A stretch of 64,000 bases of DNA from Sorangiineae bacterium NIC37A_2 (GCA_002085155.1 NASX01000014.1:1-64000), one strand, 5' to 3'; counted from the stretch's first letter, positions 9,220 through 63,904 are shown. Numbers and translations: made by a program. Notes: generated by a model not told the origin, from the sequence alone.

Positions 9220-9241
9220 AGTCCTGAAGGGGCTCGAGGGC

Positions 9242-9267: not shown

Positions 9268-9274
9268 GGTGTCT

Positions 9275-11017: not shown

Positions 11018-11032
11018 GATTTGGCTTGCTCA

Positions 11033-11047: not shown

Positions 11048-11128
11048 ATAGGACGGCTCCCCACGGACCGCTGGTCCTTTCACCTGTCCTCTCCGTCCCC
11101 GCCTTCACCCGCCCTCTCCGTCCCTGCC

Positions 11129-12175: not shown

Positions 12176-12201
12176 TCGTACGAGTATCGCACAAATAGAG
12201 G

Positions 12202-12235
12202 AGCGCCGCCTCGTCCTCTTCGGGCGGGCGGCGCT
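12202..12235. terminator. Hairpin between lipoprotein gene and gcvPA
   Basis: A perfect 9-base stem (agcgccgcc/ggcggcgct) with a 16-base loop sits between two convergent genes. It is a probable bidirectional terminator, without a clear T tract. Confidence 0.5.
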
Positions 12236-12267
12236 GGTTCGACCGGGAGCCTCTTGCGCCTTCGATC

Positions 12268-13623: not shown

Positions 13624-13648
13624 GATGAAGGAGAGGGGACAGGCGCCT

Positions 13649-14044
13649 TTAGTGGGCGGACTCGGCGACGTGAGCGCGGTAGGCGGCGGCGTCGAGCAGA
13701 TCAGCTCCGTCGTCGCTCGGTTCGATAGCGATCATCCAGCCCTTGTCCCAAGGATCTTCGTTGACGAGCTCAGGCTGGTCTTCGAGCGAGGCGTTCCTCC
13801 GTACAACCTTGCCGCTCACCGGTGCGTAGAGATCGCTGAGCGTCTTGACGCTCTCGATGGTGCCGAAAATCTTACCCTTGGTGACCTGATCGCCTTCTTT
13901 GACGTCGATGCTCACGAGCGTCACGTCGCCGAGCTGATCGACGGCGAACGCAGTAATCCCAATCACCACTGCCTGGCCATCAGGCTTGGCCCACTCGTGG
14001 TCCTTCGTGTAACGCCGATCCTCGGGGACAACTACCTCAGTCAT
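13649..14044 (-). CDS. gcvH: Glycine cleavage system H protein
   Basis: This is a 131-residue lipoyl carrier protein. The opening RRYTKDHEWAK, the core ITAFAVDQLGDVTLVS and the lipoylation site ESVKTLSDLYAPVSG (modified Lys at K67) are classic H-protein features. It shuttles the aminomethyl group from the P-protein to GcvT. It lies between gcvT and gcvPA, 25 bases before gcvPA, in the same leftward unit. Confidence 0.97.
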   Translation of the reverse strand: MTEVVVPEDRRYTKDHEWAKPDGQAVVIGITAFAVDQLGDVTLVSIDVKEGDQVTKGKIFGTIESVKTLSDLYAPVSGKVVRRNASLEDQPELVNEDPWDKGWMIAIEPSDDGADLLDAAAYRAHVAESAH

Positions 14045-47096: not shown

Positions 47097-48254
47097 CTAC
47101 TGAGTGGGGGCGTCCTGGGCCCCTGCCGACTCCGCGTCCGATTGGGTCTTTGCGGGGCCTGAGGGAGGTGCGGTGTCGGCGGCGGGAGCTTCGGCGGGCG
47201 CCGCTGCTGCGGGCGGGGCCGCCGCTGCGGGCGCAGGAGCCTTGGCGGACGCGCTTGCCGGCTTTGAAGCTGCAGAAGCTTCAGCTCTCTGCGCCTGGTT
47301 CGCCTCCGAGGCCGCGATCGCGAGCAGAATTTGGTCGACCTGGGTCTTGTAGGCCGGATGGTCCTTCAGGTGCTCGAGGTGGGCCCGGGCGCGAGCGAGT
47401 TGGCCGAGGGATCGGTAGCAGTTGGCTGCATGAAAGGAGGCCTCATCTCCGACCGGCGTGCCCCGGTAGCGAAGCGCGACCTCGTCGTAGATGGCCGACG
47501 CCCTCTGGCAACCGGACCCGTTTCGCGCCGCATGCGCTTCATGGAGCGCCGCTGCCCCCGCTTTCTCTCCTCCCCGGGCGGCGACCTCGGAGAATAGACG
47601 CTCCGCTTCGGCGTAGCTGCCTGTTTGGTAGGCGCGCATCGCCTCCGAATAGTCCGCGACGCGGACCGGCGGCGCAGAGACCTCGGCTTGTTTGTCGGCA
47701 GGTGCGCTCAGAGCGGCGGTGCGCGCCGCCTTGGCGTCCTCCTCACGTTCATGAGTGGCCTCGGCGCTCACTTTGAGGCTGGCCGTCTCCTCCGTCGCCA
47801 CGACGAGAGGGGCCGCCCGTCCGCGAGCTGAGGGTAACTCGGAAACGGGACTGCCAGTCTCGCGTACCGCGACCTGATCCCCGGGGCCTGGTCCGCCTCG
47901 CACGAATACAAGGCTTGAGCCAACCATGAGCAGAAGCAAAGCCGCCATCGCGAGCTGAGGTCGCATGGCGTAACCGGCGACGATGCTCACCCAGCGACCG
48001 AGCCTCTCTTTGGGAGGCAGGTGATGCATCGCCTCCTCTTCTGCCGCCATGATTTGATCGAAAAGATCAGAAGGTGGTTCCTCCAGGTCAATGTGGAACG
48101 CTTCGCGGGTGCGCACCATCTTCTGCCAAGCGCTTTGACATCGCTCACAATGCGACAGATGGCGCCTCAGGCTCGACGCGGTCAGCTCGTCGAGCTCACC
48201 ATACAAGAGCTCAAGGCTTGCTTGATCGAAACGTTCGCAATCCACGGCCATCAC
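47097..48254 (-). CDS. Zinc anti-sigma factor with periplasmic TPR domain
   Basis: 385 residues. The N-terminal ZAS/zf-HC2 motif is H32-x3-C36-x2-C39 (HLSHCERC). A membrane helix lies at about 96-116. The periplasmic part has TPR-like helices (YSEAMRAYQTGSYAEAERLFSE, ACQRASAIYDEVALRYRG) and an Ala/Pro-rich tail. ZAS proteins hold their ECF sigma factor at the membrane until a signal releases it. It overlaps the sigma gene by four bases, so the pair is cognate. The TPR extension is a candidate sensor of cell-envelope state. Confidence 0.85.
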   Translation of the reverse strand: MMAVDCERFDQASLELLYGELDELTASSLRRHLSHCERCQSAWQKMVRTREAFHIDLEEPPSDLFDQIMAAEEEAMHHLPPKERLGRWVSIVAGYAMRPQLAMAALLLLMVGSSLVFVRGGPGPGDQVAVRETGSPVSELPSARGRAAPLVVATEETASLKVSAEATHEREEDAKAARTAALSAPADKQAEVSAPPVRVADYSEAMRAYQTGSYAEAERLFSEVAARGGEKAGAAALHEAHAARNGSGCQRASAIYDEVALRYRGTPVGDEASFHAANCYRSLGQLARARAHLEHLKDHPAYKTQVDQILLAIAASEANQAQRAEASAASKPASASAKAPAPAAAAPPAAAAPAEAPAADTAPPSGPAKTQSDAESAGAQDAPTQ

Positions 48255-48859
48255 CTCAGAGCCTTTGCTTGCTCTTCGTAACTCAGGAGAGCTTTCTGAA
48301 GCTTTTCGAGAGCGTAGCGCATCCGGCTTTTGACCGTGTTTTCGGAGGTTTCGCTGATCTCGGCGATCTCCGAAAACGGAAGGCCGGCGAGCTCGCGCAG
48401 CAGGAAAACTTCGAGTTGATCGTCAGGAAGCGCAGCGAGCGCATCTTGGATCTCGCGCTCGAGGCGTGAACCGATAGCGCTCCGCTCTGGATCGTGTGCG
48501 GGCTGGGTCGAGCCGATCGTCTCTGCGATCGCTCCACGATCATCGCTGCGCTCATCCAAGGGCAGGTGCCTGCGGTGTTTGGACTTGCGGAGCTCATCGA
48601 TACAAATGTTGCGGACGATGGCGAAGATCCAAGTCGAGAACCTTGCCTCGTGACGAAACTCTTGAGCGCGACGGACCACCCTGAGAAACGACTCTTGGGT
48701 GACATCTCGGGCCAAGTCGCGTTGCCCGAGGTATCGACAGGCGAAGGTGAAGAGAGGCCGCTCGTAGCGCTTCACGAGCACAGCGAACGCAGACCGATCC
48801 CCCCTTTGGTATCGGATCATCAACGTCTCGTCGGTGCTGTCCTCGGCGCTTGCGCTCAT
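48251..48859 (-). CDS. ECF-family RNA polymerase sigma factor
   Basis: 202 residues from ATG 48859, with GGAGG nine bases upstream; the longer frame from 48985 lacks any sigma character. Region 2 is IRYQRGDRSAFAVLVKRYER and RDVTQESFLRVVRRA; region 4 is LPDDQLEVFLLRELAGL and SENTVKSRMRYALEKLQ. Both are typical ECF regions. It is coupled to the zinc anti-sigma gene. Its gene diverges from the envelope cluster beginning at 49313, a candidate target together with its own promoter. Confidence 0.93.
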   Translation of the reverse strand: MSASAEDSTDETLMIRYQRGDRSAFAVLVKRYERPLFTFACRYLGQRDLARDVTQESFLRVVRRAQEFRHEARFSTWIFAIVRNICIDELRKSKHRRHLPLDERSDDRGAIAETIGSTQPAHDPERSAIGSRLEREIQDALAALPDDQLEVFLLRELAGLPFSEIAEISETSENTVKSRMRYALEKLQKALLSYEEQAKALR

Positions 48860-48868
48860 CGAGACAGA

Positions 48869-48873
48869 CCTCC
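48869..48873 (-). promoter_or_regulatory. Shine-Dalgarno deciding the ECF sigma start
   Basis: GGAGG on the minus strand is nine bases before the ATG at 48859. Confidence 0.7.
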
Positions 48874-49024
48874 GGGCAGTGAGGACAGGGAGGGGGAGTG
48901 CAGCCTGCACGGAACGACTAGACGTCCGAAGGCGCGGTTCGATCTCGGGACGGGGGCCCTTTTTTGGCGACCGTTCTCCGCGCACGAAGCGCGATGCTGC
49001 CCTCTGATCTCGTCCAAGGCTGCG

Positions 49025-49312: not shown

Positions 49313-50230
49313 ATGAAGGCCATGACCAGACTCGTACGCTTATTTGGTTTTCTCGGGATCGTGTGCGCGGTCGGGCTGTGGGGCTCGCCGACCCAGGCTC
49401 AATCCACACCCGAAGCTGCGCCAACGGCGCAGACCACATCGTCCGACGCCGCTCCTGAAGCAGCCGATCCTCCGCAGTCCACAGAGACGGAGAGTCCGGC
49501 TGCCCCTGTGGCGACCACCTCGGCCAACTTGGACGGAGCGACGTATCGCGTGCGCTTGAGGGATCTCGAGCAGCGCGTCGATGAGCTCAAGGAAAAAATC
49601 CGGCGAAGCCATACTCGGCTTTCCTTGCTCAGCGACACGATTCTTTCGGGCGCAGCGGGCGGGGCAAAAGCAGAGATCGTACTCGAGAACGATCTGAGCG
49701 GCGCTTGGCGACTCATCGAGGCGGTCGTCGTGTTTGACGGCGCCGTACAATATAAGAAGACGGACGACACTGGCGTCCTCGCGGCTCAGCGCAAGATCCC
49801 GATCTTCAGCGGCTCGATCCCCGCAGGCGACCACACCGTGCAGGTGCTTCTGAAGCTGCGCGGGCATGGATTTGGCGTCTTTTCGTACCTCCAGGGCATC
49901 GAAGCCACAGTCAAGAACGACTACTCGTTCACGCTGACGGATGGAAAGGTCCTGGAGCTTCGTGCAGTTGCCTGGGAACAAGGAGGACCCACCACTCCTG
50001 TCGAGGAGCAGCCCGCGATCCGTTTCGTCGAGAACATTCGTGTCCTCGGAAGTAGCGAAGACGAGCGTCCTCCGGAGGCGACTCCTGTCACGACCCCCGC
50101 GGCGACGAAGGACCCGGCACCCGCTGTGACCCAGCCTAAGGCGGACGTGAGCGCGGGCGCTTCGACTACGCCGACCCCGGCGGCTCCCTCGGGCCAAGTG
50201 GGGGGCTCTGTCGGTGCGGGGACCCAGTAA
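49313..50230 (+). CDS. Periplasmic coiled-coil protein at the head of the Glt/Nfs-like cluster
   Basis: 305 residues. The signal peptide (about residues 1-30, FLGIVCAVGLWGSPTQAQ) is followed by a Pro/Ala-rich linker and a short coiled coil (LEQRVDELKEKIRRSHTRL). A beta-sandwich follows (about 115-225: VVVFDGAVQYKKTDD, IFSGSIPAGDHTVQVLLKLRG, DYSFTLTDGKVLELRAVAW), and the end is Ala/Thr/Pro-rich. I do not recognise a named family. Proteins like this precede TPR genes in myxobacterial gliding clusters. The start is ATG 49313, with ATG 49322 an alternative. Confidence 0.6.
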   Translation: MKAMTRLVRLFGFLGIVCAVGLWGSPTQAQSTPEAAPTAQTTSSDAAPEAADPPQSTETESPAAPVATTSANLDGATYRVRLRDLEQRVDELKEKIRRSHTRLSLLSDTILSGAAGGAKAEIVLENDLSGAWRLIEAVVVFDGAVQYKKTDDTGVLAAQRKIPIFSGSIPAGDHTVQVLLKLRGHGFGVFSYLQGIEATVKNDYSFTLTDGKVLELRAVAWEQGGPTTPVEEQPAIRFVENIRVLGSSEDERPPEATPVTTPAATKDPAPAVTQPKADVSAGASTTPTPAAPSGQVGGSVGAGTQ

Positions 50231-50252
50231 ACCCTCCCACGGACCCGCGGGC

Positions 50253-52616
50253 ATGATGGAGAAGATGAAGCGAGGCAGGCTCTTCGGCGGCGCGCGACCT
50301 TTCGTAGTCGCGACGCTCGCCCTGACGTTGCTCGGGCCCGAGCGCGCCTGGGCCGAGGACGCGATCGAACGGGCCCAACGGGCCATCGCCGATGTTGAGC
50401 TTCAGCTCCCGAACGTGCGGGCGAACGTGAGCGCTCGCCGAGCCGTCGATGCGGACCGGCTCCTCGTTCTCGGTCAGCTCCAGCATCGAACAGGACAGCA
50501 CGCCGAAGCCATCGCGACACTCTCGAAGGTGATTGAGCTCGGTCGTCAAAACAAAGCGAGCGCCTTCGCCGAGGCCGACGCGGAGTTCTTGATCGCCGAA
50601 GCCTATTTTGCGACCGACGAGCTCCACTCGGCGCGGCGCCATTATGAGCAGGTTCTCCTGCGCTCGGGCGAGAAGGCCTACGAGAACAGCGGAGGCAAGG
50701 CGGCGAGCCGCCTGGTCGACGTGGCTCTTGGACTCGACCGCCGGGACCTCTTGCCTGGCATCCTCGAAAGCATCAAAGAGAAGCTGACTCAAGCTGGGGA
50801 CCCTGCGCTCATCTACGCGCGCGCCAAGGCGCATCTTGCGCTCGGCGAATACGATGAGGCGCTTGGGGTCGCGGATCAGCTGGGAGGGACCGCGAGCGAG
50901 GCCCAGAGAGCGAACTATCTGCGCGGCGTGATCTTGATGAAGCAGGCGCTCGAGGCTGATCCCGCGCTCGGAGCGGCGCGCTTCGACGCGGCGATCTTGG
51001 CCTTCGGCCAGGCGATTCGGCCGAATAGCGCGGAGAGCTCCGAGCTCGTGCGCGAGATCAATGAGCTTGCTGAGCTCGCCGTGGCGCGCCTCGAGTATGA
51101 GCGGGGGCGTTATGTGCAGGCGGCGCGCGTTTATCAGCGAATCCCGCGAACCTCGAAGCATTTTGCGAAGGCGCTCTTTGAGCTCTCCTGGACCTACGTT
51201 CGTTCCGGGGACTACGAACGGGCCGAGCGGGCTCTCGAAGCGCTCATGGTCCTCGAACCCGGCCTGATCGATGGGGCGGATGCAGAGCTACTTCGGGCAG
51301 ACTTGCTCCTGCGGGCGGGCCGCTTTCAAGAGGCGGAAGAGGCCTATCAAATTGCGCGGGGGCGCTACGAGCCGCTTGTGCGTCAAATCGACGACTACCT
51401 GCGCGGGCACGAAGATCCTGCCGTTTATTACGATCAACTCACGGCTTCGGAAATCGAGCTCGGCAAGACGTTCCCACGCCTCGCTCTCGATTGGACCCGA
51501 GAAGAGGCGCGCGAAGAGCGCATCTTTGCCATCTTGGATGACGTGGTGCGCTCCAAGAAGATGGTCGAAGAGGCGCGACGCATGGCGATGCTCCTCGGCT
51601 TGGGGCTGAGTTCGTCCGCGCGCGCCAAGATTTTCCCCGAGGTGCGTCGTCAACTGGAGCTCGCGACGAGCCTGCAAAACCAGCTTTCGATCGCTCGCCT
51701 TTCGCTCGCGCGAGGCCTCGACAGTGAAGTGAAGACTTTCCCAGCGGCGGCCAAGAGTGCTCACGATGAACGCGTGAAGCTGATGAAACGCCTCGGAGAG
51801 ATCCCGACCCGCCCAGGTGATTTTTCTGTTCGAGACGCCAAGAATGAAAAGTTATGGAACCGCGTGACGCAGAGTCTGCAGCGCCTCACGCTGGAAGCGG
51901 ATTACCTGAACGCGCTCATCAACGGTCTCAGGCGAGTGCTCGACGATTCGGCACGTTATGGAATCACGGCGAGCCCCTCGGTCATGGCTCGCTATCGCGG
52001 TGAGCTTGCCCAAGCCGAGCAGGAGCTCGCGTCCCACGTGAGCGCGATCGCGACTCTCCGGGAGCAGGCGGAGGTCGGCAAGGTTCAGTCTGGATTTGGC
52101 GACGAGCAGTACCAGGAAGACAAGCAGGTCCGCGACCGCTTCCGCGTCTTGCTCTCCGAAGAGGTCAACGCAATCACGAAGTCCGGCGACCAGAAAGCTC
52201 GCAACTACGCGGCCAAGCTCTTGCCTGTCCTCAGGAGAATCGAGGGGCTTGAGTCGAAGCTCGCCGCCGCCGAAACGACCTTGTCCGGCGCTGTCGCACA
52301 GGGCTCGACGGAGCTCCGCGAGCTCGTCGAAGTCGAGGCGCGCGCGATGGAGACCTATGCCGAGGAGCTCGCAGCGCTGGACGCGGACGCTCGGTCCTTG
52401 GTCGGGGAAGTGGCTCGAGACAATTTCAAGAAGGTGCGAGATCGAGTTTTGCGCGTCGTGATGCGGGCGGACGTGGGCTTGGTCCAGAAGTCTTGGGAGG
52501 TCCGCGAGAAACAAATGCGCAGGATCAGAACGCTCCTTCGTGAGCGGGCTCGGGAAGAGAAGTTCATCAACGACGAGCTCCGCGAGGTGCTTGACGACGC
52601 GGGAGAGGCGCAATGA
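50253..52616 (+). CDS. Envelope TPR protein, Glt/Nfs-like
   Basis: 787 residues with a signal peptide (cleavage near WAEDAIE). Residues about 40-400 hold TPR repeats (GQLQHRTGQHAEAIATLSKVI, ERGRYVQAARVYQRIP, SGDYERAERALEALMVL). Residues about 470-780 are helical and coiled coil with no repeats. The layout matches the TPR scaffold proteins of the Myxococcus Agl/Glt gliding and Nfs spore-coat machines (AgmU/AglT class). One-to-one orthology cannot be claimed. Two ATGs at 50253/50256 and another at 50265 are possible starts. It overlaps the next gene by four bases. Confidence 0.65.
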   Translation: MMEKMKRGRLFGGARPFVVATLALTLLGPERAWAEDAIERAQRAIADVELQLPNVRANVSARRAVDADRLLVLGQLQHRTGQHAEAIATLSKVIELGRQNKASAFAEADAEFLIAEAYFATDELHSARRHYEQVLLRSGEKAYENSGGKAASRLVDVALGLDRRDLLPGILESIKEKLTQAGDPALIYARAKAHLALGEYDEALGVADQLGGTASEAQRANYLRGVILMKQALEADPALGAARFDAAILAFGQAIRPNSAESSELVREINELAELAVARLEYERGRYVQAARVYQRIPRTSKHFAKALFELSWTYVRSGDYERAERALEALMVLEPGLIDGADAELLRADLLLRAGRFQEAEEAYQIARGRYEPLVRQIDDYLRGHEDPAVYYDQLTASEIELGKTFPRLALDWTREEAREERIFAILDDVVRSKKMVEEARRMAMLLGLGLSSSARAKIFPEVRRQLELATSLQNQLSIARLSLARGLDSEVKTFPAAAKSAHDERVKLMKRLGEIPTRPGDFSVRDAKNEKLWNRVTQSLQRLTLEADYLNALINGLRRVLDDSARYGITASPSVMARYRGELAQAEQELASHVSAIATLREQAEVGKVQSGFGDEQYQEDKQVRDRFRVLLSEEVNAITKSGDQKARNYAAKLLPVLRRIEGLESKLAAAETTLSGAVAQGSTELRELVEVEARAMETYAEELAALDADARSLVGEVARDNFKKVRDRVLRVVMRADVGLVQKSWEVREKQMRRIRTLLRERAREEKFINDELREVLDDAGEAQ

Positions 52617-55600
52617 GACGCCCGATGGGAAGTTGGTTCTTGCTGGGGGCGCTCGCGCTCTCGCCGATGATGTCCGCGAGCGCGGCCGAGGTCCTGAGCA
52701 AGCCGAACAAGTCTGGCTCGGGCACGTCCACGTCGGGGGCCGACTCGGACAAGTCCGTCTTAGAGAAACCAGCCTCGGAGAAGAGCTCGACGACCAGCTC
52801 TTCCACCAAGACCAAGAAGAAGAGTGATCCGGCCGCGTACCCGATCCAATGCAGCGTCACTGGGGGCATCATCGAGACAAAGGCGGCGAGCGTCGTGCCT
52901 CCTCCCACCGCGGAGCAGCTCGCCGCCTATGAGGTGTTGCGTCGTGAGGTCGAAGCATTTTCCGCCGAAGCCCAAGACTTCAACGCACGCCTGACGACCA
53001 TCGTCCGCCACCACTACGAAGAGCGGCGGCGCGCGATCCTGGCCGAGATCGACCGAGAGATCGACATCGAGAAGGTCGGATTGAATGATGCGCGGGACGA
53101 GGCCATCCGTCGCCTCGAAGCTTTCATCGCGCGCTATAATGGGGCAGACGCCGATCCCCAGGCCACTCCTGACGCCATGTTTCGGCTCGCAGCGCTTTAC
53201 GAAGAGCGCGCCCGAGCAGGGAGCGAGGCGGATCTCGGGCCGCTGCTCGATCCTGCGATCCGGTTGTATCTTCAAGTCGCGGAGCAGTTCCCTGGCTATA
53301 AGGAGCTCGGGGCTGTCCTTTATTACCTCGGGCATGCGCTCAATGACGCGGCCCGCATCGAGGAGGCGCAGCAAGCCTTCCGATCGCTGGTTTGCTCGAA
53401 TCGCTATCACGTGCGGGGACTCGATGGAGACGCTCCGAAGCTGGCTCTCGAGAATCTCGTTCAGGATCGCCCGGAGTCGTTCTGGAACGACTGGTACAAT
53501 AAGAATCCCGTACCCTTCGACCAGCTCCGCAACCCGGGCAATCGAAGCGACGTCACCGCGCGCGACGAAGAGCTGATCTTCAAAGACCCCTACGAGGGCT
53601 GCGTCCCTGTGCCCGAGCACGACATGATCGTGGGGCAGGAGCCTCGCTACCTCGCCGAAGTTTGGTGGCAAATCGGTAACTACCATTTCGACCAGCTCAG
53701 TGACGGTGGGCCCTACGAGCTGAACCGTGCGGCGAGCGCCTATCAGAATTCCCTGCAGTTCAAGAAGCCGCCGCTCTACGGCGTCGCGCTCTACAAACAG
53801 GCCTGGACGCAGTTCAAGCAGCAGCGCTACCTGGCGGCGGTTGAACAATTCGTGCGCCTCCTGCACTACGCCGACGAACAGGAGAAGATGACCGGTGACC
53901 CCGGCGCGGACTTCCGTGCGGAGGCCTACACGTACATTGCCGGCTCGCTCACTTACGTCGACTTTGAAGGGCCCCCGGCTGCCGATCCCTTCATTGCCCG
54001 CAGTGACGCGCTCGACCTCGAGCGGGATCCGAACGTCGCTGAGGAGAAGATGGCGGTCGCGATCGAGCGGCTCCAAGACCCCGAGCTGATTCCCCAGGAT
54101 CGGAAGTGGACCGTCGAGATTTACAAGGCGCTTGCTCAGGAATTCGTTGAGCTCAATCAGAACCGAAACGCCGTTACGGTGCTTGAGCTGACTGCTCAGA
54201 AGTTCCCGCTCGATCGAGACGCCCCCGTGATCGTCAATCGCATCGCGGAGCTCTACGACTTGCAGGCTCGCCTGCTCCCCCTGGGCTCACCGGCTCGAGA
54301 AGAGCTCACGCAGAAGGCGCTCATGGCGCGGACCGAGCTCTCGAAGTTTGTCGGCAACACGCCGTGGACCGAGGCGAATCGAGACGATCCCGAAGCGCTT
54401 TCGCAGGCGGAAGATCTCGTACGCACGGGGCTCCAGCGTGCCGCGGCAGATCACACGAACTTCGGCCGCGCTTACAAAGATCGAGCGCTCGAGCTCAGCG
54501 ATCCTGCTGCACAGAGAGACCTGCTCGAACGCGCGGTGAACGAATACGAGCTCGCGGCGAGCGGTTGGGCCGGCTACTTGGCTCAGGACGAGAGCGCTCC
54601 GGACGCTTACGAGAGCCATTTCTGGCTGGCGGACGCGCTGTTCTGGGCGGCGGTGTTGAAGGTGCCGCTCGGAATCAAGCCCAGCGACAAGGAGATCGAG
54701 GAGGCTCGCCTTGCTGCGAGCAAGGTGCGCGACTCCAATGAAGACGATCGCTACGAGCAGCCCGCTGCTTATTACGTGGTCACGCTCGCCGAGCGGGTGC
54801 TCGACGTCAATGCGCAGCTCTTTGAGGAGACCGAAGGAGCCAAGGGTAAACCGCGACGGACCGCCGTCGAGTTCAGCGGGACAGGCAGCGATCGGAAGGT
54901 CATCAAGGAGAAGTTGCCGCCGGAGGTCGAAGCGGCCATCTGCGCGCGCGACGAGTACAACGCACGCATCCCCCTCGCGAAGGATCCTCAGAAGAATGGT
55001 CTGATGTACGCGGTGCAGGCCGCGGAGTACTTCTTCGTGTACGGCCAGTTTGCCGAGGCGCGTCGTCGCCTCGAGCCCATCTACGACGCCTATTGTGGCC
55101 AGAACGAGTGGGGCTACGCGGCCTGGGAGAAGCTCATCAGTATGAGCAACTTCGAGGGCAACGCGGCCGAGAGCCGGCGACTGGTCGAAGGGCGTTCGTG
55201 CGCGTACGACGAGCAGTCGAGCTTCGCAGAAAACGCGATTCGGACGCCTGTGCGTCAAGGGGTGGCATACCTTGAAGCCCGTCAGCTCTTCGATCAGGCA
55301 GTCGCGATGAAGGATGGACCTGAACGCGAGGCGCAGTGGCGGAAGGCCGCCGCCGCTTATCAGGTAGCGCTGGAAGCAGCTCCTGATCGGGAGGACGCGC
55401 CGGAAGCAGCGATGAACGCCGCTTATGCGTACAAGCAAGTCGGCGAGTACGAGAAGGCGATCGCCGCTTATAGCCTGTTCATCGAAAAGTACGGGGACAA
55501 CAAGACCCTCACCGCACTCAAGACGGACAGCCCTGAACAATACCAAGAGCGCATCAAGTATCTCGAGGAGGCGTACCGCGCGAAGGCGAGCGCTTATGTT

Positions 55601-57859
55601 CTGTTCTTCGACTACCCGATGGCGGCGAAGACTTTTGACGCGATCGCGAGCACGACGCACTTCGCGCGGGAAAATCGGGCGGATGCGGCGCGGCAGGCTC
55701 TCACGCTCTACGCTAACTTGGACGATCGAGCCGGTCTCGAGCGCGCGCAGAAGGCGTACGTCGAGCTGGGCGCCAGTGACGAAAGTCGCGCTGAAGCGGC
55801 CTATTTGGTTGCGAGCGCGACTCTCAAGAAATGGGACCCTGAGAGTCCAGACACCGGTGCGAACAAGACGGCTCGACTTGCTGCCCTTGCGGCGATGGAC
55901 AAGTACTACGCGAACTACAAGGGCAAGCGCGGCGCGGCCCGTTTCGTCGTTCGCGCTGCCTATTACGTCGCCCTCGCCTATGAGATCGGTAAGAGCGGAT
56001 CGGCGCGCGATGCGTGGAAACGTACCGTAACGGCTTTCACGGCCTACGCGGCCGAGGCGCCCAAAAAGTCGGGCGTGAGTACGGCGCTTGGTTCGGAAGA
56101 AGCATCCATGGCGGCCGAAGCCGAGTATCGAGAGCTCGATCTCGTGTTGCGCACAGCCTTCGACTACGATTCAGGGTTCCACCGTTACAAGGGCACGGTG
56201 GTTGAAGTGACCCAGCAGTACGCCAAGGACGTGACGACCGCGAAGGGCTACTACGATAAGCTGGGCGCGATCGTCGACAAGTACGCGTCCCAGAAATGGT
56301 CCGCGATTGCGATCGCGCGGCAGGGGTCGCTCTACGACTCGCTCCGCACGGGCCTTTACAACACGCGGCCTCCCGAGCTGAAGATGTTCACGGCTGAGCA
56401 AGAGAAGGCTCTGCAGGTGGCGGAACAGAGCGGTGACGACAACCTGATCGACAAGGCGGATCAAATTCGCCTTCAGGTGAGCGAGGCTTGGCGCAACAAG
56501 CGCGATCTCGAGCTTGATGGCGCGGACAAGATCGTCGTCGACCGCTACTCGACGGCCGTTCTCCTGGCGCGGCGCTACAACGTGTCCGATCCGAGCCTGA
56601 CGCGCGCGATCCGCCGTCTGGCGTTCCTCTCGGACGTCGTCGGCGAGGCCAAGATGGCGACCTATACCGCGTCGATCAAAGACCTCGGCTATCAGGCGGG
56701 CATGTTCCAGCGCATGCGTCCGGGACTCGTACAGCGTCCGAAGCCTTCGGAGCTCCCGCTCCTGTCACCGCATGTCACGCTGAGCAAGACGGCTGCGACG
56801 TCGCCCTCGATGAGCTCGTCGGCGAAGACAGCCTTCGACAAGGGTATCAAGGCCTACGACAAGGGAGATCTTTCGGGCGCTCGAACGCAGTTCAAGAACG
56901 CGATCTCGAAAGACCAGAAAGCCGCCGAGGCTCACTATGCCCTCGGCGTGGTGGAAGAGCGGCTCGGCAATATGAGCGCTGCTACTGCGAGCTACACCAA
57001 GGCGCTCGAAGTGGCTCCTGGGTATGAACCTGCCCTCCAAGGGGATGCACTTCTCGTGGCCCGCAAGTCCGGCGGGGACGCCGCCCTCGCGCGCCTCGAG
57101 GCTGCGCGGGCGAAGGCTCCGAACAGCGCACCTGTGCTCTCGGTGCTGGCGGAGGTCCAGAGCATGGCGGGGCGCTCCGGCGACGCCCAGAAGCTCGCCC
57201 AGGATGCGCTCAAACGGGAGCCCACGTTCCAACCGGCCATGGTCAGCCTCGCTCGAGACCACTATCGCCAGCGTCGGATCGATCTCGCGCTCTATACGCT
57301 TCAGGGAATTCTGGACGGGTATGGTGAGGGCAATCCCCCGCGCGATAGCAAGAACGCTGAAGCCTATTATCTGCGGGGTCTGATCTACGCAGAGCGTTCG
57401 ATGAGAGGACCGGCGATGGCGGACCTCGAGAAGGCCGCTTCGCTCCGGCCTGACCTTGCTGACGCCCACTTCGTTCTCGCGACCTTCATGCTCGAAGCTG
57501 GCAACGCAAGAGATGCATTGCCGCACCTCGAGATGGCGGCGCGCTTCGACGCAAAGAACCCGAAGCTGAGAGCGACGCTCGGCGACGCCTATCGTCTGCT
57601 CGATCGACCGAAGGATGCTCAAAATGAGCTAGAGTGGGCGCTCTCGGCGGATCCGACCGATCCGAATCCCCATTACTCGCTCGGCCTTTTGTTCCTTATG
57701 AGCAATGAGATCCCGGGCATGACGCAGAAAGCGGCGGCGGACCGCGCGATCCAACACTTTGAAACCTACAAACAAAAGGTTCCGCGTGGTGGGGCGGACG
57801 ACGTGGACGAACTCTTGACCCGCGCCAAGACCAAGAAGGCGCTCCTCGAGGCCAACTGA
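52613..57859 (+). CDS. Giant periplasmic TPR scaffold, Glt/Nfs-like
   Basis: 1748 residues with a signal peptide cleaved near SASAAE. A Ser/Lys/Thr-rich spacer leads into TPR-type helix pairs spread over the whole length, for example LYLQVAEQFPGYKELGAVLYY, AYKQVGEYEKAIAAYSLFIEK, and a clean run at about 1410-1740 (KGIKAYDKGDLSGARTQFKNA, AHYALGVVEERLGNMSAA). It has the size and layout of the large TPR proteins of gliding machines (AgmK, AgmU). It should lie in the periplasm as a scaffold for partner binding. Start and stop overlap or abut neighbours in one operon. Confidence 0.7.
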   Translation: MRRPMGSWFLLGALALSPMMSASAAEVLSKPNKSGSGTSTSGADSDKSVLEKPASEKSSTTSSSTKTKKKSDPAAYPIQCSVTGGIIETKAASVVPPPTAEQLAAYEVLRREVEAFSAEAQDFNARLTTIVRHHYEERRRAILAEIDREIDIEKVGLNDARDEAIRRLEAFIARYNGADADPQATPDAMFRLAALYEERARAGSEADLGPLLDPAIRLYLQVAEQFPGYKELGAVLYYLGHALNDAARIEEAQQAFRSLVCSNRYHVRGLDGDAPKLALENLVQDRPESFWNDWYNKNPVPFDQLRNPGNRSDVTARDEELIFKDPYEGCVPVPEHDMIVGQEPRYLAEVWWQIGNYHFDQLSDGGPYELNRAASAYQNSLQFKKPPLYGVALYKQAWTQFKQQRYLAAVEQFVRLLHYADEQEKMTGDPGADFRAEAYTYIAGSLTYVDFEGPPAADPFIARSDALDLERDPNVAEEKMAVAIERLQDPELIPQDRKWTVEIYKALAQEFVELNQNRNAVTVLELTAQKFPLDRDAPVIVNRIAELYDLQARLLPLGSPAREELTQKALMARTELSKFVGNTPWTEANRDDPEALSQAEDLVRTGLQRAAADHTNFGRAYKDRALELSDPAAQRDLLERAVNEYELAASGWAGYLAQDESAPDAYESHFWLADALFWAAVLKVPLGIKPSDKEIEEARLAASKVRDSNEDDRYEQPAAYYVVTLAERVLDVNAQLFEETEGAKGKPRRTAVEFSGTGSDRKVIKEKLPPEVEAAICARDEYNARIPLAKDPQKNGLMYAVQAAEYFFVYGQFAEARRRLEPIYDAYCGQNEWGYAAWEKLISMSNFEGNAAESRRLVEGRSCAYDEQSSFAENAIRTPVRQGVAYLEARQLFDQAVAMKDGPEREAQWRKAAAAYQVALEAAPDREDAPEAAMNAAYAYKQVGEYEKAIAAYSLFIEKYGDNKTLTALKTDSPEQYQERIKYLEEAYRAKASAYVLFFDYPMAAKTFDAIASTTHFARENRADAARQALTLYANLDDRAGLERAQKAYVELGASDESRAEAAYLVASATLKKWDPESPDTGANKTARLAALAAMDKYYANYKGKRGAARFVVRAAYYVALAYEIGKSGSARDAWKRTVTAFTAYAAEAPKKSGVSTALGSEEASMAAEAEYRELDLVLRTAFDYDSGFHRYKGTVVEVTQQYAKDVTTAKGYYDKLGAIVDKYASQKWSAIAIARQGSLYDSLRTGLYNTRPPELKMFTAEQEKALQVAEQSGDDNLIDKADQIRLQVSEAWRNKRDLELDGADKIVVDRYSTAVLLARRYNVSDPSLTRAIRRLAFLSDVVGEAKMATYTASIKDLGYQAGMFQRMRPGLVQRPKPSELPLLSPHVTLSKTAATSPSMSSSAKTAFDKGIKAYDKGDLSGARTQFKNAISKDQKAAEAHYALGVVEERLGNMSAATASYTKALEVAPGYEPALQGDALLVARKSGGDAALARLEAARAKAPNSAPVLSVLAEVQSMAGRSGDAQKLAQDALKREPTFQPAMVSLARDHYRQRRIDLALYTLQGILDGYGEGNPPRDSKNAEAYYLRGLIYAERSMRGPAMADLEKAASLRPDLADAHFVLATFMLEAGNARDALPHLEMAARFDAKNPKLRATLGDAYRLLDRPKDAQNELEWALSADPTDPNPHYSLGLLFLMSNEIPGMTQKAAADRAIQHFETYKQKVPRGGADDVDELLTRAKTKKALLEAN

Positions 57860-57864
57860 GGGCA

Positions 57865-58116
57865 ATGACCATGAAGAGCTGGATTCATTCGCTACTAGGA
57901 AGAGCAGCGCTCGCGAGCCTGGTGCTCGCGTTGCCTGCCGGAGCTCACGCTCAGGGCCGTGTGGTCACGATCAGCGAGGTCACGATCGTGGGTCGCGTCC
58001 AGAAGCCGATCGCGGCCGTGGATGTGAGCCGGATCCAGCCGCGCTTGACGCTCGCCGAGCTCCGGCAGTCGTTCACCGACTCTATCGAGAAGGCGGTCTA
58101 CCGCGCGCCTTTCTGA
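57865..58116 (+). CDS. Small exported protein between TPR scaffold and membrane genes
   Basis: 83 residues: signal peptide (cleavage near AHAQ), then VVTISEVTIVGRVQKPIAAVDV, SRIQPRLTLAELRQSF and a helical end. It begins five bases after the giant TPR gene and is followed four bases later by the next gene. The compact, motif-like sequence and operon position suggest a conserved structural part of the complex. I cannot name its family. Confidence 0.55.
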   Translation: MTMKSWIHSLLGRAALASLVLALPAGAHAQGRVVTISEVTIVGRVQKPIAAVDVSRIQPRLTLAELRQSFTDSIEKAVYRAPF

Positions 58117-58120
58117 GCGG

Positions 58121-58528
58121 ATGGTGGAGTATTGGCCGCTTGCCCTCACCCTTGTGACGGTGCTGGGCGCGGGGAGCGCGCTCCTTCGGGTCCAGGGGCG
58201 CCTCGCGGCGCTTGAGCGAGGTGGGGTAGGGGAAACTCCCACGACGGACGAAGAGGACGCGGAGAGAGACGTCGTCAGGATGCAGACGCGGCTGCTTCCG
58301 AAGGCGCTGGGCAGAATTTGCCACTTTGCGGGCGCGGCCTGTGGCTTCGTGTCCCTCGCTCGCGCTGTGGGAGCGGGGAGCTCGGTGGCGGCTGGCATCG
58401 GGTGTTTTCTCGTCGGGTCGGGGGCGGCACTAGCGATCTCGGCCTGGGGGCGGCCCCTCGAAATGCGCGCAGGGCGCTTGGTCTCGGGTGCCAGATCCGA
58501 AAAAAGACGAGGCCCCAGCAAACTTTGA
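58121..58528 (+). CDS. Small inner-membrane protein of the envelope cluster
   Basis: 135 residues with a membrane helix at about 5-21, a charged Glu/Asp/Arg loop, then two helices (about 69-85 and 90-110). It lacks the TolQ/ExbB or TolR/ExbD features that would make it the motor. It starts four bases after the 83-residue gene. Function unknown, but its location implies it is part of the same complex. Confidence 0.5.
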   Translation: MVEYWPLALTLVTVLGAGSALLRVQGRLAALERGGVGETPTTDEEDAERDVVRMQTRLLPKALGRICHFAGAACGFVSLARAVGAGSSVAAGIGCFLVGSGAALAISAWGRPLEMRAGRLVSGARSEKRRGPSKL

Positions 58529-58641
58529 GGTCCTTGGCCGTTACTTCATTCGGTGTTTCGTCGCTCCATGTGTGGACCATGCGCGCTCGGAACGTTAGGC
58601 TTCCGCTTCGACGCATCGGGGTTCGCCCCGGGGGGCACTGA

Positions 58642-60048
58642 ATGAGCCAAACGACTCAAACCACTCAATCCCGCCCAGGCCAGATGACCGCTGTCATGCG
58701 GGCCGTCGCTCCTACAGGTCCGAAGGTTCTGCGCGTCGGCGTACTTGTGGGCGGCCGGGTCATCGAAGAGCGGGTCATCCGTGACCGCGTGAACGTGACC
58801 GTGGGCCCCAGTGAAAAGAACATGTTCGTGTTCTCCGGCGGGCCGATCCGCTCGAGCCACGTGCTGTTCGAGCTCGTGAGCGGTGAGTACGTGCTCAACT
58901 TCACGGATGGTATGACCGGCCGTGTGGCTCTTCCGACCGGCGTTTCCGACCTCGAGGTGCTGCGTGGACAAGCCCGGCGCAACTCGAGCGGCGCATATCA
59001 GGTCCGTCTCACAGAAGAATCACGAGGCAAGGTCACCATCGGGGAGACCTCGTTCCTCTTCCAGTTCGTGGCGGCTCCTCCCGTCCAGCCGCGTCCGCAG
59101 CTTCCTGTCGCCGTCACGCGCGGCGCGAGCGGCGTGGATTGGAACACGACGATCATCGCCGCTTTTGCCTTCCTGGTTCATTTCATGGGCATCGGCGCCA
59201 TGTACTCAGACTGGCTCGACCCGATCGTTGATGAGCAGGCGAGCCTGGCGGGCCTGGTCGATACCCTGAATCAGCTGCCTCCTCCTCCGCCCGTCGAAGA
59301 ACAGCCGGAGGAGGTCGAACCGGAAGAGACCGCGGAGGCTCCCGCGCAAGAAGAGGCGAAACCTGCTCAGGCCTCGTCCGGCGAGTCGACGAAGACGCCG
59401 GAGCCAGGCGCGGGCGGTAAGCTCAACGCTGCGCAGACGGCGGCTCTGTCGAACCAACTCGAGCAGTTTTCGATGGCGACGCTCGCGGCGCTCGGCTCAA
59501 CGGGGCCGGCCACTGCCGGAGTCCTGACGGGCGGTGATGTTCCGACCGGCCTCCTCGATGCAGCGGCGGCCTCGTCGGCAGGGGTCGGTGTCGGGAGCAC
59601 CTTGAACCTGGGCGGAGGCGGTGGCGCGGTGAAGCCCGGGACCTCCGGCGGCCTCGGAACCATCGGCTCGACGACCACCTCGACGGGAAGCGGCTCGACA
59701 GGTACGGCGACCGCTGTCGAGGGGCCGAAGGGCAACGTCTCAGCTTCGACTCAGGTGGCCGCCGGAAGCGTCTCGGATGCGAGCCGCGTTGTGGCGGGCA
59801 TGACGGCGGGCTTCCGCCGTTGCTATAACCAAGCCCTCGAGCAGAATCCGGACGCCTCGGGATCGATCCGGCTCTCTATCAAGGTGGGCCCGGGCGGCGA
59901 AGTGCAGAGCGTCACAGCCACCCCCTCGGGGAACCTCCCTCCGTCGGTCGTGACCTGTGTGCAAGCCCGAGCTCAGGCCGCTCAGTTCGCGCCCCCCGAG
60001 GGCGGCTCGGCGGTCATCAACGTCCCGGTGAGCTTTGTGAAGCAATAA
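58642..60048 (+). CDS. AgmX/PglI-type trans-envelope protein (FHA-like, TM, TonB-like end)
   Basis: 468 residues. The N-terminus (about 20-150) is a beta-rich FHA-like domain, cytoplasmic, without the strict pThr residues. A membrane helix lies at about 168-190. A Pro/Glu linker (VEEQPEEVEPEETAEAPAQEE) is long enough to cross the periplasm, and a Gly/Ser/Thr-rich stretch follows. The end (about 378-468: SRVVAGMTAGFRRCYNQAL, GSIRLSIKVGPGGEVQSV) is the AgmX/PglI C-terminal domain, with C394 and C439 positioned for a disulfide. This is the core layout of GltG/PglI and GltJ/AgmX, which link the inside of the cell to the outer membrane in gliding. Confidence 0.85.
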   Translation: MSQTTQTTQSRPGQMTAVMRAVAPTGPKVLRVGVLVGGRVIEERVIRDRVNVTVGPSEKNMFVFSGGPIRSSHVLFELVSGEYVLNFTDGMTGRVALPTGVSDLEVLRGQARRNSSGAYQVRLTEESRGKVTIGETSFLFQFVAAPPVQPRPQLPVAVTRGASGVDWNTTIIAAFAFLVHFMGIGAMYSDWLDPIVDEQASLAGLVDTLNQLPPPPPVEEQPEEVEPEETAEAPAQEEAKPAQASSGESTKTPEPGAGGKLNAAQTAALSNQLEQFSMATLAALGSTGPATAGVLTGGDVPTGLLDAAAASSAGVGVGSTLNLGGGGGAVKPGTSGGLGTIGSTTTSTGSGSTGTATAVEGPKGNVSASTQVAAGSVSDASRVVAGMTAGFRRCYNQALEQNPDASGSIRLSIKVGPGGEVQSVTATPSGNLPPSVVTCVQARAQAAQFAPPEGGSAVINVPVSFVKQ

Positions 60049-60191
60049 CGCTCACTTGAGCGTGGGCTGGCAGTCCGGCCCGCGCAGACGGGGTCCTTTC
60101 TCCCGAACTACCGAGAAATCCGTGAAAATTCGGCACTTCTCCGAGCGGTGGGGTAGTTTTTTTTCATCCGAAGTGGCATGCTCCAGTCATC

Positions 60192-60755
60192 ATGCGACGG
60201 GTTCTAGGATTGGGGCTAGCTGCCATCTCGCTCTTCGTATTGGGCGGGGTGAGCGCGGTGAGTGCGGCGTCCGACACGACGGTGCAGGAGCTGGAAGCTC
60301 AGGGGCCCGCCCCTACCGCCTCGCAGATGCTCGAAAAAGCACGGGCCATCTTGGCGGATGCTGAGCGTTCGACGCAGTCGGCGACTCAATCGCTGCGCTC
60401 CGCTCGCAAGGAGAACGATGTCGTGAAGTCTTTGTGCCTCGACGACAAGCTCGCCCAACTCGAGGTAGCTCGAGCCACTGTGGAGGAACGCGTCCTAAGT
60501 CTCGAAGGGGCGATCCAAGCGAACAACGCTGAGGGGATCGAGCATGACTTTTCTGTCGTGAGTGCCCTCGGGGATCGCATCGGCTCATTGGCGAACGAAG
60601 CGGGGCAGTGCATTGGAGAGGACCGAACCTCCGAAGGAACTGGATCTTCCCTCCAGGTGACTTTCGATCCGGCGATTCCGACGACAGACACTTCGAGCTT
60701 GCCGCTGGGCCCGAATATCAGTACGCCGCCATTGGCAGCGAGTGCGACCTTCTAG
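60192..60755 (+). CDS. Secreted coiled-coil protein
   Basis: 187 residues with a signal peptide (about 1-25), a coiled-coil segment (SQMLEKARAILADAERSTQS, LAQLEVARATVEERVLSLE), two Cys residues that could pair, and a Pro/Thr-rich tail. The family is not recognised. It lies 143 bases after the AgmX-type gene, so a promoter may sit in the gap, and 43 bases before the barrel gene. Confidence 0.5.
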   Translation: MRRVLGLGLAAISLFVLGGVSAVSAASDTTVQELEAQGPAPTASQMLEKARAILADAERSTQSATQSLRSARKENDVVKSLCLDDKLAQLEVARATVEERVLSLEGAIQANNAEGIEHDFSVVSALGDRIGSLANEAGQCIGEDRTSEGTGSSLQVTFDPAIPTTDTSSLPLGPNISTPPLAASATF

Positions 60756-60798
60756 CGATTGAAGTCGTCTTGCTTGGGGGTAGCGCACGGTACTTAAG

Positions 60799-62175
60799 AT
60801 GAAGCTTCGGCTCTTCACCTTGGCAGCAGGTCTGCTCTTTTCGACCGGGCAGGCTCGAGCGCAATCGACGCCTGCGCCCGAGGGTTCGACTCCGCTCCCG
60901 TGGGTCGCGAACCGCTCCATCGGTCGTGGCGTTGGTGTGCGCGTAGGCGACTTCGAGCTGCATCCGGGGGTCTCGGGAGAGTTTGGTTATGACTCGAACT
61001 GGTACCAGCGCGCGTCCTCTGCGGTGGAAGCTGCCAACGCTGGTCGGCCGGAGGACGCGCTCCGATTCCGCGTCACGCCGAGCCTCTCGCTCAGTACGCT
61101 CGATACACGCGTGCAAGAAGGGCCGGGGCCCAAGCCCCTGCCTCGCGCAGTCCAGTTTCACCTGGACGCCAGCGCTTCGTATAACGAGCTGATCGGCCTC
61201 GACTCGGCTTCTACGGTCGCTCAAGATCGAAACATTTCAGGCAGTTTAGGTCTGAAGCTCGAACTCTTCCGCGGTCGGCATTGGTCGGGGGACCTGGGGG
61301 CGGGGTATGCGTACATCTACGAGCCGGCGAACGTTGCGGGCTTTATCGGCGCGAACGATCGTCACGTGATCACTGGCGGCGGTTCGATCCGTTGGATGCC
61401 GGGGGGTGGAAGCTTCACGTGGGACTTGGTCGGTTACAACACAAGATTGACCCTGTTCCCGTCGACCAACTTTGGCGCTTACGATAACGGCGATCACACG
61501 ATTACGACCGCCGGCCAGTGGCGCTTTCTCCCGAAGACGGCGCTTCTCTACGACGCAAGTGTCGGTTTCATCCGCTACGAAGACCCGAGGCTCAATAGCG
61601 GCATCGACACGACGGCGCGAGTTGGCGTAAACGGTCTGCTTCTGACTCGCCTCGGCGTGCTTTTGATGGGCGGCTGGGCGACGGGGTTCCGCGACAACGA
61701 CAATGGTCGTCCTCGGCCTTATGATGACTTCGTCGCCAAGGCTGAGCTCAAGTACTACCTCAACGCGGGCAGTCGACTTCAAGCGGGAAGCGCGAATGTG
61801 GGCGTTTCCTCGGTGGCGATTGGTTATGATCGCTCGTTTGAGAACAGCTACCTCGGAGATTTTTTTCAGAGAGATCGCGGTTACGGAAATTTCACGATGT
61901 TCCTCGCGGGCCGCTGGATCTTCCAGCTCGACGGTGGGGCCTCGGCGATTCACTACCCGGAGATGAACTTCGACGAGGCAGTGATCGACAGCTTTGGTGA
62001 AATCCGCGTCGATGGTCAGGCATTTGTCGAATACAGGCCTATTCGGACGCTCGGCATCAACATCACTGCCCGTTACGATCATAACTTCTCCCGCGTCCTT
62101 GAAGGAGCGAACTACTCGGACGATCTCTCGTTCTCCCGGTTCCGTGGCTTCTTGGGTGTTCGCTGGTTCCTCTAA
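60799..62175 (+). CDS. Outer-membrane beta-barrel, probable polysaccharide exit partner
   Basis: 458 residues with a cleaved signal (near ARAQSTPAP) and alternating amphipathic strands to the end, whose last residues are RFRGFLGVRWFL. Aromatic girdle residues recur (SGEFGYDSNWYQ, LGAGYAYIYEPAN, YNTRLTLFPSTNF), consistent with roughly 16-18 strands. It directly precedes the OPX gene by 13 bases. In Myxococcus, short OPX proteins lack their own outer-membrane pore and pair with separate beta-barrel proteins; this gene pair has that arrangement. The match to that class is by context. Confidence 0.72.
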   Translation: MKLRLFTLAAGLLFSTGQARAQSTPAPEGSTPLPWVANRSIGRGVGVRVGDFELHPGVSGEFGYDSNWYQRASSAVEAANAGRPEDALRFRVTPSLSLSTLDTRVQEGPGPKPLPRAVQFHLDASASYNELIGLDSASTVAQDRNISGSLGLKLELFRGRHWSGDLGAGYAYIYEPANVAGFIGANDRHVITGGGSIRWMPGGGSFTWDLVGYNTRLTLFPSTNFGAYDNGDHTITTAGQWRFLPKTALLYDASVGFIRYEDPRLNSGIDTTARVGVNGLLLTRLGVLLMGGWATGFRDNDNGRPRPYDDFVAKAELKYYLNAGSRLQAGSANVGVSSVAIGYDRSFENSYLGDFFQRDRGYGNFTMFLAGRWIFQLDGGASAIHYPEMNFDEAVIDSFGEIRVDGQAFVEYRPIRTLGINITARYDHNFSRVLEGANYSDDLSFSRFRGFLGVRWFL

Positions 62176-62188
62176 GGCTCTGCTGCCG

Positions 62189-62779
62189 ATGAGAGCCTTG
62201 TTTCTGCTCATTCTCAGTCTCGTTTTGTGCGCGGCTTGCGGCTCGAATGCGCCTCGATCCCAAGTGGAGCTTGCCCCACCGCTTGAGAACACGACTTTGG
62301 GGCCTGGAGACCTATTTCGACTCGAGATCGTGGGCGAACCTGACCTCCCGAAAGAATACCAGGTGTTAGCGGATGGAACGGTCAACCTCCCGTTCATCGA
62401 GCCGCTGAAGGTCTCGGGACTCGAGCCGTACGAGATCGCTCGGAAAGTCCGGGAAGAGCTGATCCGTCGGGAAATCCTCACGAACCCCAGCGTCGTGGTG
62501 AGTGTGATCGAGTACCGGAGCAAGAGCGTGACGTTGCTCGGTCAGGTGCAGAAGCCGGGCAGTTTCCCGATGAGCCCGGGCATGACCTTGATCCAGGCGA
62601 TCTCGATGAGCGGCGGTTTCACGAGCATCGCGCAAGCGAGCCGAGTGTCGCTCTCACGGACGACCCAAGGAAAGGTGATCACCGTGACGATCGACGTTGC
62701 CGCGATCTCCGAGGGAAGAGCCAAGGACATTGCGCTCCAGCCTGGCGATCGCATCTACGTTCCCGAGCGCGTGTTCTAA
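62189..62779 (+). CDS. Short OPX (Wza-like) polysaccharide export lipoprotein
   Basis: The ATG at 62189 begins a signal ending LCAAC (acceptor C17); the 196-residue product then has the poly-export domain (LGPGDLFRLEIVGEPDLP, VLADGTVNLPFIEPLKV) and a SLBB domain (VTLLGQVQKPGSFPM, TLIQAISMSGGFTSIAQAS). It ends shortly after the second domain, without the C-terminal amphipathic helix that forms the outer-membrane pore in E. coli Wza. It should need the neighbouring barrel for exit through the outer membrane. No Wzx, Wzy or Wzc gene is visible in the window. Confidence 0.9.
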   Translation: MRALFLLILSLVLCAACGSNAPRSQVELAPPLENTTLGPGDLFRLEIVGEPDLPKEYQVLADGTVNLPFIEPLKVSGLEPYEIARKVREELIRREILTNPSVVVSVIEYRSKSVTLLGQVQKPGSFPMSPGMTLIQAISMSGGFTSIAQASRVSLSRTTQGKVITVTIDVAAISEGRAKDIALQPGDRIYVPERVF

Positions 62780-62864: not shown

Positions 62865-63809
62865 CTAAAACGTTGCTCGGAAGTCGAGGAGCGCACGAAA
62901 CGCGGGTACCGTTGGAGAGAGCGCTCCGCCGCCTCCCGTCAGAGAGGAGCGACTTCCAAGGGGCAATCCGGCTCCGAGGCCAAGGCCGAGCGTGTACCGG
63001 TCGAGGGCGAGTTGTCCTCCGAGGAGCAACTCGGCGGGGAGGGGAGAACCTGCGCTTTCCTCATCAAGAGCGGAGGGCTGACTTTCGAAGCTGGGCGCGA
63101 GGTAACCTTCAAGGCTGACGGAAGCGAGCGGGGTCGGGCGGTAACGGAAGCCCGCCGCGACGCGCATCCCTGAGCCCAAGCGGTACAGTCCGAGCGTGCG
63201 GGGAGCTCGTAGCTGGGCGCGGAGGTCAAGGCTGAGCTCGAACTCGTGGTCGAGGTAACTGAGCGCGACGCCGAGATCTCCATGGGCATTGCCTTCGCCT
63301 GAGAAGGCCTCCGGAGAACCGAGCGGCAAAGAGACCACGCCGAAGCCGCGGACCGCGAACGATTCAGTCTCGACGCCGTAGCCGACGCTGAATCTCGGAT
63401 CTCCGATCGCGGTGGTCGGTAGGTCTCCGGTGGCGCCGGTCACGGTCCCTATGCCCGATCCGGTCTGCACGGCATTCCAAGGCAGGGCGACCCCGACGTC
63501 GAGTCCTTCGGCGAGCCGCAACGCAAAGGTGCCTTCGATGAGCCAGAGATGAGAGACGACCGGCACGCGGGTCGCCGTCTCCGATGGAGCGGCGAGGGCG
63601 AACTGGACGGGCCCGTTCAAGTAGGAAGAACGCAGGCCAATGGAGTAAGCGTCCCGCAGCTCGGTCGCTGGCTCGAGTCCCCAAAAAGGGCTCGGCCGCG
63701 CGGGGGCATTGAGCTGGTTCGAAGCGAAGCCTTCCTGGGCCCGAGCCGGAGCGGAGAAGCCAAACAGCGAGACGATTGCGCCAGCGAGACATCTCCACGG
63801 AAAGGTCAT
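62865..63809 (-). CDS. Outer-membrane barrel-like protein
   Basis: 314 residues from ATG 63809, with a signal peptide cleaved near ARAQEG; the ATG at 63830 is an alternative. The mature protein is rich in alternating strands (GLRSSYLNGPVQFALAA, GFGVVSLPLGSPEAF, LGLGLGAGLPLGSRS), and the last residues end RATF with a terminal Phe, the usual outer-membrane barrel signal. I see no OmpA C-terminal domain. Function unknown. It is convergent with the OPX gene and divergent from maf. Confidence 0.6.
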   Translation of the reverse strand: MTFPWRCLAGAIVSLFGFSAPARAQEGFASNQLNAPARPSPFWGLEPATELRDAYSIGLRSSYLNGPVQFALAAPSETATRVPVVSHLWLIEGTFALRLAEGLDVGVALPWNAVQTGSGIGTVTGATGDLPTTAIGDPRFSVGYGVETESFAVRGFGVVSLPLGSPEAFSGEGNAHGDLGVALSYLDHEFELSLDLRAQLRAPRTLGLYRLGSGMRVAAGFRYRPTPLASVSLEGYLAPSFESQPSALDEESAGSPLPAELLLGGQLALDRYTLGLGLGAGLPLGSRSSLTGGGGALSPTVPAFRALLDFRATF

Positions 63810-63904
63810 GCGACGCGTCGGGCGGCTCACCCTCGCTCACTATCAATCCTTTCTTTGCTGCACAATCGGGCGGCGCGCGGGGCGATCGTGGTATAGGCGC
63901 GCCC

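Follow-up and report, generated by a model that had tools for sequence, protein, structure and literature searches.

The systems described so far that most resemble the locus reported here come from Myxococcus xanthus and its relatives. In Agl-Nfs/Exo, a Glt-type transducer with a motor encoded elsewhere works with a Wzx/Wzy polymer (PMC3858216). The Group B core complex is composed of gltC-D-E-G and aglRQS, and the Glt paralogue cluster G4 contains the gltD homologue MXAN_1922 (PMC3169522). MXAN_1915/1916 form the orphan OPX/barrel pair WzaB/WzpB of the biosurfactant polysaccharide (BPS) pathway (PMC7310880, PMC9603273), and MXAN_1925/1926 encode MglA and MglB (PMC3441718, PMC4316618). We analyzed the first 64 kb (64,000 nucleotides; hereafter, the window) of the 89-kb contig C96 of Sorangiineae bacterium NIC37A_2 (GCA_002085155.1, NASX01000014.1:1-64000), whose genome comprises 5.0 Mb in 150 contigs. 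Nine genes on the plus strand, B to J, span positions 49313-62779 of the window, separated by mostly short gaps or overlapping.

We propose, with moderate confidence, that the locus encodes a single trans-envelope apparatus in which a transducer of the Glt-core type (B to G) is built around an outer-membrane exit for a BPS-type polysaccharide (H-I-J). At the level of sequence, the proposal draws on the phylum-wide linkage of the two parts, the orthology of J and I to WzaB and WzpB, a motor that is encoded in cis in deep lineages and has decayed to an AglR relic here, and the transmembrane His and TonB-like tail of gene G. An earlier note on this DNA had listed two TPR scaffolds, two small envelope proteins, an AgmX/PglI-type protein, a secreted protein, a barrel and a short OPX. 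All of these are present, and gene B belongs with them.

Gene B, 49313-50230, plus strand: secreted protein of 305 amino acids with a long coiled coil and a beta-sandwich; marker of the locus.
Gene C, 50256-52616, plus strand: GltC-like TPR protein of 786 amino acids (NF033756, E = 2.8e-16, under the cut-off).
Gene D, 52613-57859, plus strand: giant TPR protein of 1748 amino acids in the GltD position, fused to a GltE-like part.
Gene E, 57871-58116, plus strand: secreted protein of 81 amino acids with a signal peptide; CglF-like by way of its Myxococcus orthologue.
Gene F, 58121-58528, plus strand: membrane protein of 135 amino acids; degenerate AglR relic (ExbB/TolQ type).
Gene G, 58642-60048, plus strand: GltG-like protein of 468 amino acids with an FHA-like domain, one transmembrane segment and a TonB-like C-terminal domain.
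Gene H, 60192-60755, plus strand: secreted, helical protein of 187 amino acids.
Gene I, 60799-62175, plus strand: 18-stranded outer-membrane barrel of 458 amino acids; its position and its family profile mark it as the WzpB orthologue.
Gene J, 62189-62779, plus strand: short OPX lipoprotein of 196 amino acids; WzaB orthologue.

The loci of relatives were compared by tblastn, and a profile of gene B, run on 285 sampled genomes of the phylum, found matches in 223. The gene order was the same across the family and the taxonomic order, with the OPX gene J linked in 21 of 23 loci; the two without a linked J were G036, where H-I-J lies ~650 kb away, and L076. Among the deeper-phylum loci long enough to judge, 13 of 19 had H-I-J in place. 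Phylum-wide, the order is B-C-D-(GltE)-E-[AglR-AglQ-AglS]-G-H-I-J, and wherever I and J have relocated, gene H has gone with them. A chance neighborhood was rejected on the strength of this repeated order. The physical linkage between machine and exit pair, which the earlier note had put forward, is therefore real, and the lack of synteny that it had named as grounds for abandoning the idea was not found. Two loci were spaced differently: in L253 of family f31 (G076, 711-13827), H-I-J is on the opposite strand, ~10 kb downstream of E, and no G was recognized in between; in Anaeromyxobacter oryzae (L250, 9242-15068), G and H are ~6 kb apart, with other sequence in the interval.

The core set of the Glt/Nfs complex, GltC/GltD/GltE/GltG, is fully represented in the window, with gene D assigned as GltD by position and TPR content and the other three by profile match. 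Residues 1392-1692 of D match GltE (NF033758, E = 2.9e-21); gene G matches GltG over its FHA-like, transmembrane and tail regions (NF033760, 92 bits, E = 3.4e-26), and its tail exceeds the cut-off of the AgmX/PglI model NF033768. The Myxococcus orthologue of gene E matches CglF (NF033764, E = 6.4e-8, under the cut-off). As equivalogs in NCBIfam, GltC, GltE and GltG score far below their cut-offs (59, 76 and 92 bits against 450, 225 and 650, respectively), and a search of the phylum sample for NCBIfam GltG found no genome above the cut-off. A fold search with gene B returned weak matches to adhesion proteins and Ig-like folds, from which no function was read. D and GltE form a single open frame in the window and are separate genes in L123, L249 and, apparently, L042 (same genus); the GltE part of the window's D does not begin with a recognizable lipobox-like signal.

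The exit pair could be placed more precisely. J carries Poly_export (PF02563, 68 bits) and SLBB domains, both above cut-off, and a lipobox-like Cys; it terminates after SLBB, without an outer-membrane-spanning domain, which fits a short OPX (≤280 amino acids). Gene I lies 13 bp upstream of J, and its AlphaFold model shows 18 long strands (predicted local distance difference test score, 78.5), the number found in the EpsX, ExoB and WzpB barrels (PMC9601211); Foldseek matched the model to porins and AlgE. Three OPX matches were obtained in M. xanthus AM003: EpsY (379 bits, cut-off 320), a second protein that groups apart and that, by elimination, we regard as ExoA, and a third (L248, 8012-8617). 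This last one, located beside a barrel of I's family, is the best match to J and is identical in sequence to the solved chain 9n9a_A; no paper describing structure 9n9a was found in the literature searched. In an OPX tree built without SLBB fragments, which had muddled an earlier tree, all 28 of the 28 locus-linked OPX proteins, that of M. xanthus included, form a single clade (100/100) that stands apart from EpsY and the presumed ExoA. Judged by sequence, J and I are thus orthologous to WzaB and WzpB of the described translocon (PMC9601211, PMC9603273, PMC7310880) and not to the spore-coat (Exo) exporter, and identity with the Nfs/Exo spore-coat system was rejected. An MXAN_1915 mutant behaves the same as other BPS mutants (PMC7310880). 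Publications describe WzaB/WzpB as an orphan pair encoded at a distance from the BPS genes, whereas here it is joined phylum-wide to a Glt-type machine. The locus differs from Agl-Nfs/Exo in that its OPX falls in another clade and its exporter and machine share one locus.

No Wzc or Wzx/Wzy genes were found beside I-J among the proteins scanned. Downstream of H-I-J in G036 come genes for Wzy, Wzc and glycosyltransferases, the arrangement published for the WzaB orthologue of Sandaracinus amylolyticus, which we take G036 to be. The window genome has, on contig C70, a cluster encoding Wzc, Wzy and a nucleotide-sugar dehydrogenase resembling UDP-ManNAc dehydrogenase. The OPX matches of this genome all lie elsewhere. 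The C70 Wzc matches that of G036 with 362 bits, as opposed to 104 bits for the Wzc on C37, and the large Wzy of C70 aligns with the Wzy of G036. Because of these resemblances, and because BPS is rich in ManNAcA (PMC9603273), a BPS-like polymer synthesized by the C70 cluster is the most likely cargo of I-J.

In Myxococcus sp. RHSTA-1-4 and Archangium lansinium, the genes B-C-D-GltE-E-G-H-I-J are contiguous; in M. xanthus AM003, the genes are split between two contig ends, one with B to GltE and the other with I and J. Throughout Myxococcia, mglB-mglA immediately precede B (L205, 7516-8594; also L195, L176, L172 and L181). In M. xanthus AM003 and the genera Myxococcus, Archangium and Anaeromyxobacter, they share the strand of B, and two genes run divergently from mglB, as published for mas (PMC3546991). 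Gene D stands where MXAN_1922 is expected in Myxococcus loci. Since the published tags (1915/1916, 1922 and 1925/1926) fit the conserved order, MXAN_1915-1926 appears to be one locus made up of wzaB/wzpB, G4 and mglBA. An open-literature search on these tags, which left subscription papers outside its range, showed the pieces treated separately and no paper joining them. The window cluster has the same genes in the same order as G4 (PMC3169522), but it has the D-GltE fusion and an AglR relic between E and G, and it lacks adjacent mglBA; the closest MglA of the window genome is on C105. The mglBA linkage is not general, being absent from 33 loci with enough upstream sequence. In two metagenome-assembled genomes, sequences distantly similar to MglB (28-33% identity) overlap the B frame or lie shortly before it (L187, 2897-3310; L211, 9351-9791), with no linked MglA match in either; the association with mgl may predate Myxococcia.

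In many deep lineages, the interval from E to G contains a motor encoded by one AglR/TolQ gene and two genes for ExbD, whose products exceed the Pfam cut-offs (MotA_ExbB, 92 bits; ExbD, 32-47 bits); L254 also bears motor genes at this place. These deep loci hold all seven types of the Group B core complex clustered, to which the locus adds B, the CglF-like E and the H-I-J module; the motor has been lost in the window's taxonomic order and in Myxococcia. Within that order, the degenerate first motor gene, F, is usually the sole remnant between E and G, and Myxococcia and other groups show no motor trace there. F is the least conserved gene of the window's family (median pairwise identity of 21.5%, compared to 53.5% for G), with an open frame at its place in 15 of the 15 family loci compared. 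The F of G034 matches MotA_ExbB (E = 1.2e-4), and the window's own F, scanned directly against Pfam, had no match. Profile comparison links the family F to the F of the order (95.9% probability, E = 5.5e-9) and the latter to canonical AglR (95.6%, E = 1.2e-8). These intermediate matches, together with position, indicate that F is a degenerate AglR/ExbB relic. An ExbB-ExbD-ExbD motor was ancestrally part of the locus.

What the earlier note had said of the cluster's identity and motor was right in part. The machine does have a Glt/Nfs-like core, but this corresponds to M. xanthus G4 rather than to Glt (G1/G2) or Nfs (G3), and NfsA, NfsB and NfsH types were not seen at the locus. The exit is a composite OPX/barrel pair as supposed, but of the BPS type and not the Exo exporter working with Nfs. 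The window has no complete AglRQS-type motor, both ExbD partner genes being absent, yet the statement that no AglR/Q/S-type gene is present overlooked the relic at 58121-58528. The genome search suggested there did reveal a second, fuller and separate Glt core on contig C63 and, among eight MotA/ExbB proteins, two that belong to AglRQS-like triads on C9; given their presence, a motor shared with the rest of the cell is possible. The two ExbB-ExbD-ExbD triads lie back to back (L071, G000:C9, 7327-11970), and an SNF2 helicase beside one of them also matches ZorD of Zorya defense. Zorya defense uses an ExbB/ExbD-type motor, and one C9 triad may belong to a defense system.

In the transmembrane motif of TonB and TolA, Ser and His are spaced by four. 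The transmembrane segment of G has a Ser-x3-His motif (Ala-x3-His in the window itself), the His being present in 15 of 15 family proteins and the Ser in 12 of 15, and its tail matches the TonB C-terminal domain (E = 1.4e-6). TonB and TolA dock on their motors via this Ser/His motif (PMC12204202), and G, with the docking residues and a TonB-like C-terminal domain, has the sequence attributes of a transducer of the TonB/TolA type. The His was found in 20 of 26 loci without a cis motor but in only 1 of the 11 that encode a complete motor (Fisher test, 2e-4, with residues read by eye and ancestry not taken into account). Its retention in motorless loci hints that G is nowadays driven in trans. 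In L073 and L074 (Polyangiaceae-like), a second, isolated copy of G, ~44% identical to that of the window and with the same Ser-x3-His motif, has no other genes of the locus nearby.

A working model can be outlined as follows. Anchored in the inner membrane, G would be driven in trans by another motor of the ExbBD or AglRQS type, and the TPR scaffolds C and D/GltE, along with B and the CglF-like E, would pass its force across the periplasm to H-I-J. There, the force would gate, position or clear the OPX/barrel during release of a polymer made by an unlinked Wzx/Wzy/Wzc cluster, presumably that on C70 in the window genome. A candidate for controlling the site of action in Myxococcia is the MglA/MglB polarity switch encoded beside the locus. 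The fullest version, in which a TonB-like machine, powered by protons and descended from a gliding motor, would act directly on polysaccharide release through the OPX/barrel, driving or gating it, with its stator replaced in trans and MglA/MglB providing spatial control in Myxococcia, is tentative and somewhat doubtful; if true, it would describe a polysaccharide secretion system energized mechanically.

Several observations weigh against a single apparatus. On both hard and soft agar, the motility of an MXAN_1922 (G4) mutant was not appreciably altered (PMC3169522); BPS-pathway mutants, by contrast, form fuzzy swarms with reduced spreading by type IV pili (PMC7310880). Thus, G4 may be dispensable for BPS export. 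If the MXAN_1922 mutation was polar, as has been stated, expression of wzaB downstream should also have dropped, barring an internal promoter. Agl-Nfs acts after Exo export and not in it (PMC3858216). Since H-I-J is separate from the remaining genes in G036 and in family f31, coupling of machine and exit is not obligatory. The direct profile match of the family F to canonical AglR is weak (5.6%), and the correlation between the His and the missing motor ignores shared ancestry.

Some of these facts would suit other explanations. The machine might bind a BPS-type polymer after its exit and move it over the cell surface, with no role in export, as Agl-Nfs moves Exo. Such transport would agree with the paralogy of C, GltE and G to Glt/Nfs and with the AglRQS-like triads in the genome, but we judge it unlikely: the cluster encodes no outer-membrane barrel besides the exporter, and machine and exporter occupy one locus, unlike nfs and exo. 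Alternatively, the machine could perform an unrelated envelope task, such as tethering or polarity under MglA, and share the locus with the BPS exit only through co-expression in a common state. The normal motility of the MXAN_1922 mutant, the separate H-I-J of G036 and f31 and the adjacency of mglBA in Myxococcia are all compatible with this idea; it is nonetheless quite improbable, as the linkage was retained through most of the phylum despite reshuffled neighbors elsewhere. A second gliding machine, suggested by the homology to GltC, GltE, GltG and CglF, is very improbable, given that the MXAN_1922 mutant glides normally, that G4 cannot replace the glt genes (PMC3169522), that the scores fall far under the gliding equivalog cut-offs and that the fuller Glt core is encoded separately. 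Identity with the gliding machine proper was rejected on the scores and the mutant phenotype, the latter also making any role in gliding itself unlikely.

The genes flanking the cluster are partly conserved. A sigma factor gene and one for an anti-sigma-like zf-HC2/TPR protein (47097-48985) diverge from B. In many relatives, those of other families included (L059, L060 and L077), the sigma factor gene is retained beside B, and it may encode a regulator of the locus. On the other side, a convergent gene (62865-63830), whose product resembles outer-membrane proteins and weakly matches TraB (E = 0.005), is kept beside J in several relatives.

Three stretches of the chromosome of M. xanthus, the most thoroughly studied gliding bacterium (mglBA, G4 and the orphan WzaB/WzpB), thus appear to be one locus, of which G4 and the exit parts are conserved phylum-wide. 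With the single-apparatus proposal, G4 would gain its first concrete function open to test, and the possibility is raised that polysaccharide exit through the outer membrane may be energized mechanically. The locus also represents a case in which a machine lost its motor while its force transducer retained the motor-docking residue.

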